Shown: piece by piece, positions 9,885 through 32,080 of the stretch
Numbering within the stretch: position 1 is the first letter of the stretch
How the letters are laid out: each line of letters starts with the position of its first letter
From: Actinomycetota bacterium
GTDB lineage: Bacteria; Actinomycetota; Acidimicrobiia; Acidimicrobiales; CADCSY01
Length of the DNA stretch: 40,800 nt
Direction: 5' to 3'
Assembly (NCBI GenBank): GCA_004366205.1
Contig: SIRW01000075.1
Location: 1 to 40,800, forward strand
The notes under the pieces: generated by a model
Told to the model about the DNA's origin: nothing
The model's input: the letters and a program-made list of their open reading frames with translations, nothing else
The model's database searches: none
Made by a program: the position numbers and the translations under genes

Positions 9885-11612
9885 ATGGCCCGGGGGGAAC
9901 GGGATCCGGCAGCGAGCGGCCCGGCGGGTGTGGTCGCCGACCGGCTCGGCGTGGCCGAGGACCCACTGCTGGAGGCCGACCCGGCGTCGTTCGCCCGGGT
10001 GCTGGTGCGTGCCGGGATGGCGGCCGCCCTGCACCCGTTCGCCGTGCTCGGGGCGTCGACCCGTCTCGCCCGCGGGCAGCTGACGGCGATGCTGGCCGCC
10101 ATGCGGCGCGCCGTGGGTGGCCCTGCGGCTGGACCTGTCGCGCCCGACCCCAAGGACTGGCGCTTCGCCGACACCGCCTTCGAGGAGAACCCGCTGTTCT
10201 TCCTGGCGGCCCAGCAGTACCTGCTGGCGCGGGAGTGGGCCCTGGACGTGGTGGAGGCCGCCGACTTGCCCGAGGCCGAGGCCACCAAGGCGCGCTTCGC
10301 CGCCCGCTTCGTGCTCGACGCCCTGGCCCCGACGAACAGCCTCGCCGGGAACCCGCAGGCCATCCGCAAGGCGTTCGACACCGGCGGGAAGAGCGTCGCC
10401 CGGGGCCTGCGCAACTGGCTGGCCGACGTGCGCCACAACGACGGGTGGCCCTCGCAGGTCGACCGCACGCCCTTCGAGCTCGGCGTCAACACCGCCGCCA
10501 CGCCCGGCAAGGTCGTGTACCGCAACGGGCTGATGGAGCTCATCCAGTACGAGCCGCAGACCCCCACGGTGCACGAGGTGCCGCTCGTGTTCTGCCCGCC
10601 GTGGATCAACAAGTACTACATCCTCGACCTGGCGCCGGGGAAGAGCCTCATCGAGTGGGCGGTCCAGCACGGCCACACCTGCTTCGCCATCAGCTACCGG
10701 AACCCCGACGCGTCGATGCGCGACACGGGCTTCGACGACTACATGCACCAGGGGCCCCTCGAGGCAACCCGGGTGGTGCGGGCCATCACCGGCCGGCCCG
10801 CGGTGAACCTGCTGTCGCTGTGCCTCGGCGGCACGCTCAGCGCCGTCGCCCTCGCCTACCAGGCGGGCGTGGGCGACCGTGACGTCAACACGGCCACGTT
10901 CCTCAACACCCACACCGACTTCAGCCACCCGGGCGTGCTCGGTGTGTACACCGACGAGGGCACGGTGGCGGCGCTCGAGGCCCGCATGCAGAAGCAGGGC
11001 TACCTCGACGGCAAGCAGATGGCCCGCACGTTCGACACGCTGCGGCCCAACGATCTGGTCTTCCGCTACGTGGTGCGCAACTGGCTGATGGGCGAGGACC
11101 CGCCCGCGTTCGACCTGCTGGCCTGGAACGCCGACACCACCCGCATGCCCGCGAAGATGCACGCCACCTACCTGCGGGCGTGCTACCTCGAGAACCGCTT
11201 CGCCCGGGGTGAGCTCGAGGTCGACGGCCACGTCCTCGACCCCGGCAAGGTCGAGGTCGACGCCTACGTCCTGTCAGCCATCGAGGACCACATCGTGCCG
11301 TGGCAGTCGGCGTACAAGACGGCGCACCTGCTCGGCGGCGACAACCGCTTCGTCCTGAGCACGTCCGGCCACATCGCCGGCATCGTCAACCCGCCGAGCC
11401 CCAAGGCCCGGCACTGGACCAACGAGCACCTGCACGAGGACCCCGAGGCCTGGCTCGCCGGCGCCACCCTCGTAGAGGACACGTGGTGGAACGACTGGGC
11501 GGCGTGGATCGGCGAGCGGGCCGGCAAACGGGTCCGGGCCCGCAAGACGCTGGGCAGCGACGAGCACCCACCGATCGAGGACGCGCCCGGCACCTACGTG
11601 CGGGAGACGTGA
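9885..11612 (+). CDS. phaC: Class I polyhydroxyalkanoate synthase
   Basis: Polymerises (R)-3-hydroxyacyl-CoA into polyhydroxyalkanoate on the granule surface. The 575-residue length is that of class I synthases. The lipase-like box is SLCLGGT with catalytic Cys313. The Asp of AIEDHIVPW is Asp468 and the His of TSGHIAGIVNPP is His496. The Asp-His spacing (28) matches that of the Cupriavidus enzyme. The N-terminal domain carries the typical RFADTAFEENPLFFLAAQQY segment, and PPWINKYYILDL is also characteristic. The neighbours support the role: a phasin-like gene and an XRE regulator follow on the same strand. The ATG at 9885 is preceded by TAGGGT at 6 nt, suggesting leaderless mRNA. Confidence 0.95.
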   Translation: MARGERDPAASGPAGVVADRLGVAEDPLLEADPASFARVLVRAGMAAALHPFAVLGASTRLARGQLTAMLAAMRRAVGGPAAGPVAPDPKDWRFADTAFEENPLFFLAAQQYLLAREWALDVVEAADLPEAEATKARFAARFVLDALAPTNSLAGNPQAIRKAFDTGGKSVARGLRNWLADVRHNDGWPSQVDRTPFELGVNTAATPGKVVYRNGLMELIQYEPQTPTVHEVPLVFCPPWINKYYILDLAPGKSLIEWAVQHGHTCFAISYRNPDASMRDTGFDDYMHQGPLEATRVVRAITGRPAVNLLSLCLGGTLSAVALAYQAGVGDRDVNTATFLNTHTDFSHPGVLGVYTDEGTVAALEARMQKQGYLDGKQMARTFDTLRPNDLVFRYVVRNWLMGEDPPAFDLLAWNADTTRMPAKMHATYLRACYLENRFARGELEVDGHVLDPGKVEVDAYVLSAIEDHIVPWQSAYKTAHLLGGDNRFVLSTSGHIAGIVNPPSPKARHWTNEHLHEDPEAWLAGATLVEDTWWNDWAAWIGERAGKRVRARKTLGSDEHPPIEDAPGTYVRET

Positions 11613-11631
11613 GGGAATCCGGGGAAAGGGG

Positions 11632-11665
11632 TTGCCATCTAGCGAGTGCTAAGTATACTTAGCAC
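11632..11665 (+). promoter_or_regulatory. Phasin promoter with overlapping 20-bp operator palindrome
   Basis: TTGCCA (11632-11637), a 16-nt spacer and TATACT (11654-11659) form a strong housekeeping-type promoter. The -10 box lies in the centre of a perfect 20-bp palindrome, GTGCTAAGTATACTTAGCAC (11646-11665), which is strikingly AT-rich for this genome. A protein bound there would block RNA polymerase, so the site is probably an operator. The XRE regulator two genes downstream is the obvious candidate ligand-responsive repressor, by analogy with PhaR/phasin control in PHA producers. Confidence 0.75.
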
Positions 11666-11696
11666 GAGTCAACCCCCCGACCCGCAGGAGCACACC

Positions 11697-12008
11697 ATGG
11701 CAACCGCCGACCTCACCGAGATCACCAAGTCCGCCCAGCAGCAGGTCCTCGACGGCATCGAGGCCGCCCAGAGCCTGGCCCTCGAGAGCTTCCGCTCGAT
11801 CGTCGAGGCCACCGACAACCTCGTCCCCGCCAAGCTGCGCGAGATCGACGTCCCCGGCAGCGACCTGCTGCCCGAGCCCGGCACCGCCGTGAAGCTCACC
11901 TTCGACTTCGCCGAGGAGCTGCTCGCCCGCCAGCGGGCTTTCGTCGAGCAGCTGGCCGAGACCGCCGGCGTCAAGGCCGCCACCAAGGCGAGCACCAAGA
12001 CCAAGTAA
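11697..12008 (+). CDS. Phasin-like PHA granule-associated protein
   Basis: A 103-residue, mostly helical, amphipathic protein with no Cys or membrane segment. It starts MATADLTEITKSAQQQVLDG and ends in a Lys/Ala/Thr-rich tail (KAATKASTKTK) like those of actinobacterial phasin-like and HBHA-type proteins. Phasins coat PHA granules and are usually made in large amounts. The near-consensus promoter, the AGGAG ribosome site 7 nt before the ATG and the position right after phaC all fit this. The family assignment rests on composition and context more than on a diagnostic motif. The start at 11697 is favoured over an upstream in-frame ATG at 11646, which lies inside the operator. Confidence 0.72.
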   Translation: MATADLTEITKSAQQQVLDGIEAAQSLALESFRSIVEATDNLVPAKLREIDVPGSDLLPEPGTAVKLTFDFAEELLARQRAFVEQLAETAGVKAATKASTKTK

Positions 12009-12018
12009 CACTGATCGG

Positions 12019-12423
12019 GTGAGCGACCGCCCGACCGACGACGCATCCGAAGGCGGCGAGGACCCCCTCGCCGCCTTCGGCGCGTACCTGCGCACCCAGC
12101 GCCAGCTCGCCAAGCTCAGCCTGCGCCAGCTAGCCGAGCTCACCCGCCTGTCGAACCCCTACCTGAGCCAGCTCGAGCGCGGCCTGCACCAGCCGTCGAT
12201 CAAGGCGGTCAAGGCCATCGCCGACGCCCTCGACCTCCAGGCCGAGACGCTGATCGCGCAGCTCACCGGTGACGCGCCGGGCGCCCCCGCGAGCGGCGGG
12301 TCCGGCGACACCGAAGCAGCCATCCGCAACGACCCACGACTCACCGCCCAGCAGAAGGCGGCGCTGCTGTCGGTGTACGAGTCGATGGTCGGCGAGTCAG
12401 GCCGGTCTTCGCCAACTGGGTAA
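12019..12423 (+). CDS. XRE-family transcriptional regulator of the PHA locus
   Basis: A 134-residue protein. Residues about 18-75 form a Cro/C1-type helix-turn-helix (LRTQRQLAKLSLRQLAELTR, then LSNPYLSQLERGLHQPSIKA). A short C-terminal part ends in a helix (LTAQQKAALLSVYESMV). It begins 10 nt after the phasin-like gene, so it is likely co-transcribed and under the palindromic operator at 11646-11665. It probably represses the phasin gene and itself according to PHA state, but that is inference. The GTG start has no good ribosome site. The stop codon follows directly on the left arm of a terminator-like inverted repeat. Confidence 0.85.
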   Translation: MSDRPTDDASEGGEDPLAAFGAYLRTQRQLAKLSLRQLAELTRLSNPYLSQLERGLHQPSIKAVKAIADALDLQAETLIAQLTGDAPGAPASGGSGDTEAAIRNDPRLTAQQKAALLSVYESMVGESGRSSPTG

Positions 12424-30646: not shown

Positions 30647-32080
30647 GTGAGCCGCAGCAGCACAGTCGCAGCATTCCGCCGGACCGCCGCAGTCGGTGCC
30701 GTGGCGGCGCTGGCCCTGGCCTCCGTCGTGGCCGTGGCGCCCGCCGGACAGGCCCAGGAGACCGAGGCGGCGTTCAACAACGGCCACGGCAAGGCCGTCG
30801 CCGTCCTGAACCGCGTGGTGCCCGGCGTCGGGTCCCTCGAGCTGGGCATGGCGACCGGTGTCGCCGTCGCCGAGTTCACCAACCGGCTGGCGCAGTCGCA
30901 GGCCCAGGCCATGGACATGGGACTGGTCGGCACGTCGCTGACCGCCGAGGGGTGCAGCGGCGACTCGACCATCCGGCCCGAGGACCTGCCTCAGCCCCTG
31001 CGGGTCGACAACCGCCAGGGCGACACGACCGCCGAGCGCGACGAGCTCCCTGTTGCGGGCGAGGCCTTCGGCGGTGGGCGCCTGCGGGTCGAGGCCACGA
31101 CCGTGCCGTCCTCCCGGGCGGTGGCGACGGGCGGCAAGTCCCAGCTCGGCCTCGTGACGCTCGACGGCGGCCAGGCCGAGGCGGTCACCGAGATCATCCC
31201 CGGCACGGCCCGCATCGCCCGCGCCGTGGTCGAGAGCGCCATGGAGATCGCCGGCGTCGTGCGCTTCCACGGCATGCGCTGGGAGGCGCTGCACCGCACC
31301 GGTGAGGGTGCGACGGCCACCGGCTCGTTCGAGCTCGGCGGCGCCGACGTCGGTGGGGTCCCGCTGCCGGTCGACCAGCTCGGCGTGGTGGAGGACGCCG
31401 TCAACACCGCCCTGGCGGTCACCGGCATCCAGATCGAGATGCCGACGGTGCAGCGCGTCGAGGAGCCCGTCGACTTCGTGCGCGTCACGCCGCTGCGCAT
31501 CATCATGCAGGACAGCGAGGCCGGCTCGACCCTGCTCGGCCCCGTGCTCGGCGGGACCCGTGAGCAACGCGAGCAGCTCTTCCAGCAGCTGACCGAGTCG
31601 ATCTGCGAGGCGGGCGGCGCCCTCCTCGTCGCCGACATCGCGCTCTCGGTCGTGGCGGGAACCGGGTTCCTCGCCGTGGAGGTGGGCGGCGTGGAGGCCA
31701 CCTCGATCGACATGGTGGTCGGCAACCCGTTCGGCACCATCGAGACCCTGCCGGGAGTCGACGTGGACGTCGACGTCACCGAGGGCACGCCCGCGTCGCC
31801 CCCGGCCCCGGGTGCGCCCGGCGCCGGGCCCGGCGCCGGACCGGGCACGGTCGAGGGCACAGCCATGCCCGGCACCCATCAGGCGGCGGTGGCGACCGAG
31901 GAGGTCTGCGAGTCCATCCACCCCTTCCGCTGGCCGCCGTGCTCCACCGGCGCCGCCCTGCCGGTCGGCCTCGCGGGTCTGGCCGCCACCGCGCTCATGG
32001 CCGGCCTCGACTGGCGCCGCCAGCGCCGGGTGCTCGCCGGCGGTGACGGCGCGGACCCGACCCCGGTGGCGGTGGCGTGA
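30647..32080 (+). CDS. Secreted, C-terminally membrane-anchored protein of a liv-type operon
   Basis: A 477-residue protein with a Sec signal peptide (RRTAAVGAVAALALASVVAV, cleavage near GQA-QE at about residue 38), a 360-residue extracellular body, a Pro/Gly/Ala linker (about 383-405), the Cys-containing HPFRWPPC segment, and a final membrane helix (ALPVGLAGLAATALMAGL) followed by a basic tail. It would sit on the outer face of the membrane. I recognise no domain in the body (ELGMATGVAVAEFTNRLAQS, RVTPLRIIMQDSEAGSTLLG). It is the first gene of the transporter operon, overlaps the binding-protein gene (TGATG), and may help capture or present substrate. AGGGGGGAA precedes the GTG. Confidence 0.8.
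   Translation: MSRSSTVAAFRRTAAVGAVAALALASVVAVAPAGQAQETEAAFNNGHGKAVAVLNRVVPGVGSLELGMATGVAVAEFTNRLAQSQAQAMDMGLVGTSLTAEGCSGDSTIRPEDLPQPLRVDNRQGDTTAERDELPVAGEAFGGGRLRVEATTVPSSRAVATGGKSQLGLVTLDGGQAEAVTEIIPGTARIARAVVESAMEIAGVVRFHGMRWEALHRTGEGATATGSFELGGADVGGVPLPVDQLGVVEDAVNTALAVTGIQIEMPTVQRVEEPVDFVRVTPLRIIMQDSEAGSTLLGPVLGGTREQREQLFQQLTESICEAGGALLVADIALSVVAGTGFLAVEVGGVEATSIDMVVGNPFGTIETLPGVDVDVDVTEGTPASPPAPGAPGAGPGAGPGTVEGTAMPGTHQAAVATEEVCESIHPFRWPPCSTGAALPVGLAGLAATALMAGLDWRRQRRVLAGGDGADPTPVAVA

Follow-up and report, generated by a model that had tools for sequence, protein, structure and literature searches.

The window, that is, the whole stretch of 40,800 nucleotides that was analysed (contig SIRW01000075.1 of an Actinomycetota bacterium), carries a PHA synthase gene followed by two small genes on the same strand. 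The synthase gene, phaC (9885..11612, + strand), was recognized by PF07167 (E = 1.9e-59), and its TIGR01838 score of 602 bits just missed the cut-off of 622.65. Downstream of it lies a gene for a phasin-like protein of 103 aa (11697..12008, + strand), with an ATG start and an RBS-like AGGAG a few bases 5' of it; this is the first gene of a presumed operon. The following gene (12019..12423, + strand) encodes an XRE-family regulator of 134 aa, consisting of an HTH and C-terminal helices (PF13560/PF01381). Its Pfam matches were to HTH families only, and its predicted structure contains seven helices.

The 103-aa protein matched no family in Pfam and NCBIfam, including the phasin models (PF05597, PF09361 and others), and PF09361 was reached by one of 30 relatives, with E = 0.07. 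The predicted structure consists of two long helices (pLDDT 81, pTM 0.46), and a fold search with this model gave no PDB match. Since no Pfam family matches, the name phasin is contextual, being taken from the gene context and the helical shape. A previous reading made from the sequence alone (hereafter the sequence-only reading) had placed a phasin promoter here; the context agrees with that term, but the family databases do not provide it. In the loci of the phasin-like family, phaC was present in 18 of 55, a lower bound because of short flanks.

Between phaC and the phasin-like gene, a perfect 20-bp palindrome, GTGCTAAGTATACTTAGCAC, occupies positions 11646-11665; it is identical to its reverse complement. 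Its centre contains the -10 box TATACT (11654..11659, + strand), and the -35 box TTGCCA is found at 11632..11637 (+ strand). In a promoter-pair scan, TTGCCA-16-TATACT was the sole promoter-like pair in 11550-11760 (shuffles: 0.0). Both the symmetry and the proper spacing described in the sequence-only reading were thus confirmed. The stop codon of phaC precedes the palindrome, and phaC is thus outside this promoter. With up to 3 mismatches allowed, no other copy of GTGCTAAGTATACTTAGCAC turned up in the window or elsewhere in the 3.44-Mb genome. The GC content was 73.3%, compared with the roughly 70% given before. The window holds two perfect 20-bp palindromes against 0.28 expected from base composition, so that a bare palindrome of this length is weak evidence. 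The palindrome is genuine, and the deciding evidence is its conservation, not palindrome statistics. The second one, CGGCGCCGGGCCCGGCGCCG (31819-31838), lies within overlapping ORFs and is probably a by-product of the 73% GC.

In order to follow the element in other genomes, homologues of the XRE protein were sought at the level of the relatives, the order and the phylum, and a profile built from the 103-aa protein retrieved family members beside many related XRE genes. Motif discovery was carried out on the 150 bp upstream of 36 phasin-like genes adjoining related XRE genes, with the window excluded. The de novo motif was a symmetric 18-mer, TGCTAAgTATAcTTAGCA, whose log-likelihood was 350 with imposed symmetry (23-32 in shuffles) and 392 without it (62-75 in shuffles). 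Under this motif the window site scored 28.5 bits, and the runner-up in the 40.8 kb scored 8.2. In a leave-one-out analysis of 32 loci, at least 14 bits were obtained in 31 of the 32 upstream regions, and the best site of the locus fell in the upstream region in all 32, although many of the sampled loci are related and the counts are not independent events. The background gave one match in 98,410 positions; it is located in L051, where it could mark an additional genuine site. Of the 20-mer, the inner 18 bp, TGCTAAGTATACTTAGCA, form the conserved unit. This 18-bp symmetric putative operator (11647..11664, no strand assigned), defined by the de novo motif and the leave-one-out analysis, contains the -10 box.

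A search of 198 genomes from the order with a strict pattern then gave 13 places, and the reversed control gave none. Of these places, ten are directly upstream of genes of the phasin-like family, two precede a small ORF (no profile match) with an XRE gene after it, and the one in G383 looks like chance. The palindrome was kept upstream of phasin-like genes adjoining XRE genes in the order, the class and the phylum, and it moves with the gene pair when the gene order changes; this is the point on which, according to the sequence-only reading, the idea could fall. In 21 of 37 phasin-like loci, the TATA of the site is preceded at 16-18 nt by a -35 hexamer with at least 4/6 agreement to TTGACA, compared with 12% at random positions. 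A chance palindrome in GC-rich DNA, for which the two perfect 20-mers in the window might speak, is virtually impossible and is refuted by this conservation, that is, by the score of the window site under a motif learned without it and by the empty reversed control.

The inverted repeat could also act in RNA, as a hairpin or terminator that ends the phaC transcript. The 91-nt region folds better as RNA than its shuffles (z = -2.6), and the palindrome is flanked by an outer inverted repeat formed by GGGGTTG (11629-11635) and CAACCCC (11671-11677). However, terminator prediction gave no call, and the palindrome, which contains the -10 box, lies upstream of the predicted transcript start. Moreover, relatives have the site between divergent genes and in loci where phaC was not found. 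A role in RNA is thus very improbable and was rejected.

The site was found between the phasin and XRE genes in three layouts, namely the operon, a divergent arrangement (L065, L066) and an inverted one with XRE preceding phasin (L068, L074, L076). In one genome (G048), the site lies with the phasin gene on contig C139, apart from the XRE gene on C149, which fits a regulator acting in trans. The proposal that the palindrome is a repressor site for the XRE gene that follows is supported, as a putative operator, by the conservation and by the fixed link to the phasin/XRE pair.

The closest comparison is offered by MLDSR (RHA1_ro02105) of Rhodococcus jostii, an XRE regulator whose gene shares an operon with that of the lipid-droplet protein MLDS, which it controls (PMC5504291). 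MLDSR is autoregulated; it binds a palindrome in the region of its own promoter and recognizes both a promoter and an operator motif. Its box is GNT(T/A)GCTNNTGCTANC, and the 16-bp box GNTWGCTNNTGCTANC was mapped with EMSA, SPR and mutation (PMC5504291). The protein has seven helices and is drawn onto lipid droplets (PMC5504291). The window XRE resembles it in its family, in the seven helices of the predicted model and in its presumed operon with a candidate storage-body coat protein, and it has the C-terminal I..D..L...QK.ALL.VY in common with MLDSR-type members. It differs in its neighbours, phaC and a short phasin-like gene instead of a lipid-droplet protein gene, and its identity to MLDSR-type proteins was 40-45%. 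In the XRE tree, two sister clades with 100/99 support were obtained, PHA-linked (51 rows) and MLDSR-type (37 rows), where rows of family f114 stood in for RHA1 MLDSR. Family f114 was taken, by gene order, to be Mycobacterium/Rhodococcus-like. The window XRE falls in the PHA-linked clade, whereas the second copy of this genome (G000:C117) belongs to the MLDSR-type clade. A site was found nearby for 44 of the 51 PHA-linked XREs and for 9 of the 37 MLDSR-type ones, counts of related rows that are not independent; the other 7 PHA-linked XREs had no site within the flanking stretch examined.

The operators were also compared. The centre of the site reads STATAST for the window regulator and CTNNTG for MLDSR. 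When the window site was set against GNTWGCTNNTGCTANC, the outer GCTA...TAGC agreed in register, and the window site lacks the inner GC..GC found in the box. The MLDSR-type XREs of the f114 genomes are preceded by TGCTTGCAAAAGTTAGCA, TGCTTGCAATAGTTAGCA or TGCTTGCTCTTGCTAGCA, and the published box lies inside TGCTTGCTCTTGCTAGCA in the same register as the window 18-mer. In L097, an actinobacterial relative, the 18-mer T[GCTTGCTCTTGCTAGC]A upstream of an MLDSR-type XRE holds GNTWGCTNNTGCTANC in that register. Based on this shared register, the window operator appears to belong to a class with measured binding. Rv0474 of Mycobacterium tuberculosis, with HbhA as its neighbour, is presumably another MLDSR-type XRE, judging from gene order and sequence. 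It is reported to repress its own transcription, and a copper response and rpoB as a target have been described (PMC10961391). Unlike the window XRE, it is not known to have a PHA context.

These similarities raise the question of whether the main ligand of the operator is a different regulator, such as the XRE paralogue of MLDSR type at G000:C117 or a regulator encoded away from the operon. The recognition helix SNPYLSQ is common to the XRE paralogues, whose recognition helices are near-identical, so the C117 protein could also bind, and a site in the same register precedes MLDSR-type XREs in Mycobacterium-, Rhodococcus- and Streptomyces-like genomes (genera tentatively assigned, in part by gene order). 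On the other hand, MLDSR-type loci in Acidimicrobiia are mostly without the site, none was found beside the C117 copy, and PHA-linked XRE genes have it alongside in every gene layout. Another main ligand is therefore improbable. We infer binding by the PHA-linked, MLDSR-like XRE (12019-12423), for which the 18-bp palindrome is very probably the autorepressor operator.

In the proposed mechanism, an XRE homodimer would sit across the -10 box and block RNA polymerase, so that the regulator would repress the phasin gene together with its own gene (negative autoregulation). Once PHA granules form, they would take up the regulator and the repression would be relieved, keeping the output of coat protein in step with the granule surface. 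Granule-controlled release is proposed because MLDSR is drawn to lipid droplets and PhaR to PHB granules; resting on this analogy, it has a little less than an even chance of being correct. The phaC gene is probably not a target, since its end precedes the promoter and no further site occurs in the window.

PhaR of Ralstonia and others represses a phasin gene and itself, and is released upon granule formation (PMC3570403, PMC3079617). It would work like the window XRE if the model holds, but its protein family is unrelated, and PF07879 (PHB_acc_N) had no match in this genome. The XRE-like repressor H16_B1672 acts on phaP1 in Ralstonia eutropha (PMC11332829), and in that respect is like the proposed window XRE, an XRE-family protein on a phasin promoter; the word 'palindrome' is absent from that paper. 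An XRE-based equivalent of PhaR, put forward in the sequence-only reading, is hence a supported idea, but one with precedents, since MLDSR controls MLDS (PMC5504291) and H16_B1672 represses phaP1 (PMC11332829).

That the control is repression rather than activation is likewise what we infer. A variant on the sign of control, which keeps the operator claim, is a dual-function or activator site at which the XRE aids polymerase at low dose and blocks it at high dose. In vitro, MLDSR gave stimulation at a low protein:DNA ratio and repression at a high one (PMC5504291), and simple repression may be too simple, as MLDSR both activates and represses. Several relatives also have two sites, the upper one over the -35 (L002, L003; for example TGCTTGACATACCAAGCA in L003). 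In contrast, the single site of the window has its centre on the -10 box, where binding normally blocks polymerase, and no good second operator was found near it (11627-11644, -25 bits). A dual-function or activator site is accordingly rather unlikely here, and autorepression is the preferred reading.

On the preferred reading of an autorepressor operator, a broader and more tentative idea, slightly less probable than granule release itself, can be outlined. Actinobacteria may own a PhaR-independent PHA-sensing switch, in which the XRE repressor would bind nascent granules and thereby come off the 18-bp operator at the phasin -10 box. This switch might have arisen alongside the MLDSR circuit of lipid droplets; a single regulator family would then serve both storage bodies in one cell, each with its own operator type. 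For the matching of phasin output to PHA content in Actinobacteria without PhaR, the shared operator is a testable candidate across the phylum. It also connects MLDSR, the regulator known from lipid droplets, with PHA granules, and makes the regulons predictable from sequence.

Further targets of the operator were searched genome-wide, and matches to the loose pattern occurred at the control rate; only one site, on contig C21 (13.1 bits), stands out. This MLDSR-type site, TGCTTGCAAGAGTTCGCA (G000:C21:121200-121217; L117, L130), is about 30 bp before the start of a gene whose Lys/Ala-rich product had a sub-threshold match to Phasin PF05597 (27 bits, cut-off 28.8). In the family of this gene, at least 9 bits were found at that position in 9 of 27 loci, G000 included, and the common form was the MLDSR-type TGCTAACTNTTGCAAGCA. 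The distribution of sites suggests that the C117 paralogue may serve the C21 gene, while the window XRE would serve the PHA-linked gene. Similar sites at the same position were seen in L131, L135, L138, L142, L150, L151, L155 and L156.

Some additional features of the related loci were observed. A CRP-like TGTGA-N6-TCACA motif, unseen at the window locus, occurs farther upstream of the operator in L007, L016, L039, L045, L046, L047 and L061. The phasin/XRE loci of L002, L003, L036, L044, L049, L050 and L051 also include a 3-hydroxyacyl-CoA dehydrogenase-like gene, and in L049-L051 a second, weaker site is found between phasin and XRE, perhaps before this gene. In family f34 (L029, L108, L109), strong sites lie before another small ORF, downstream of which is an XRE gene of the MLDSR-type clade; here the same operator goes with another partner protein.
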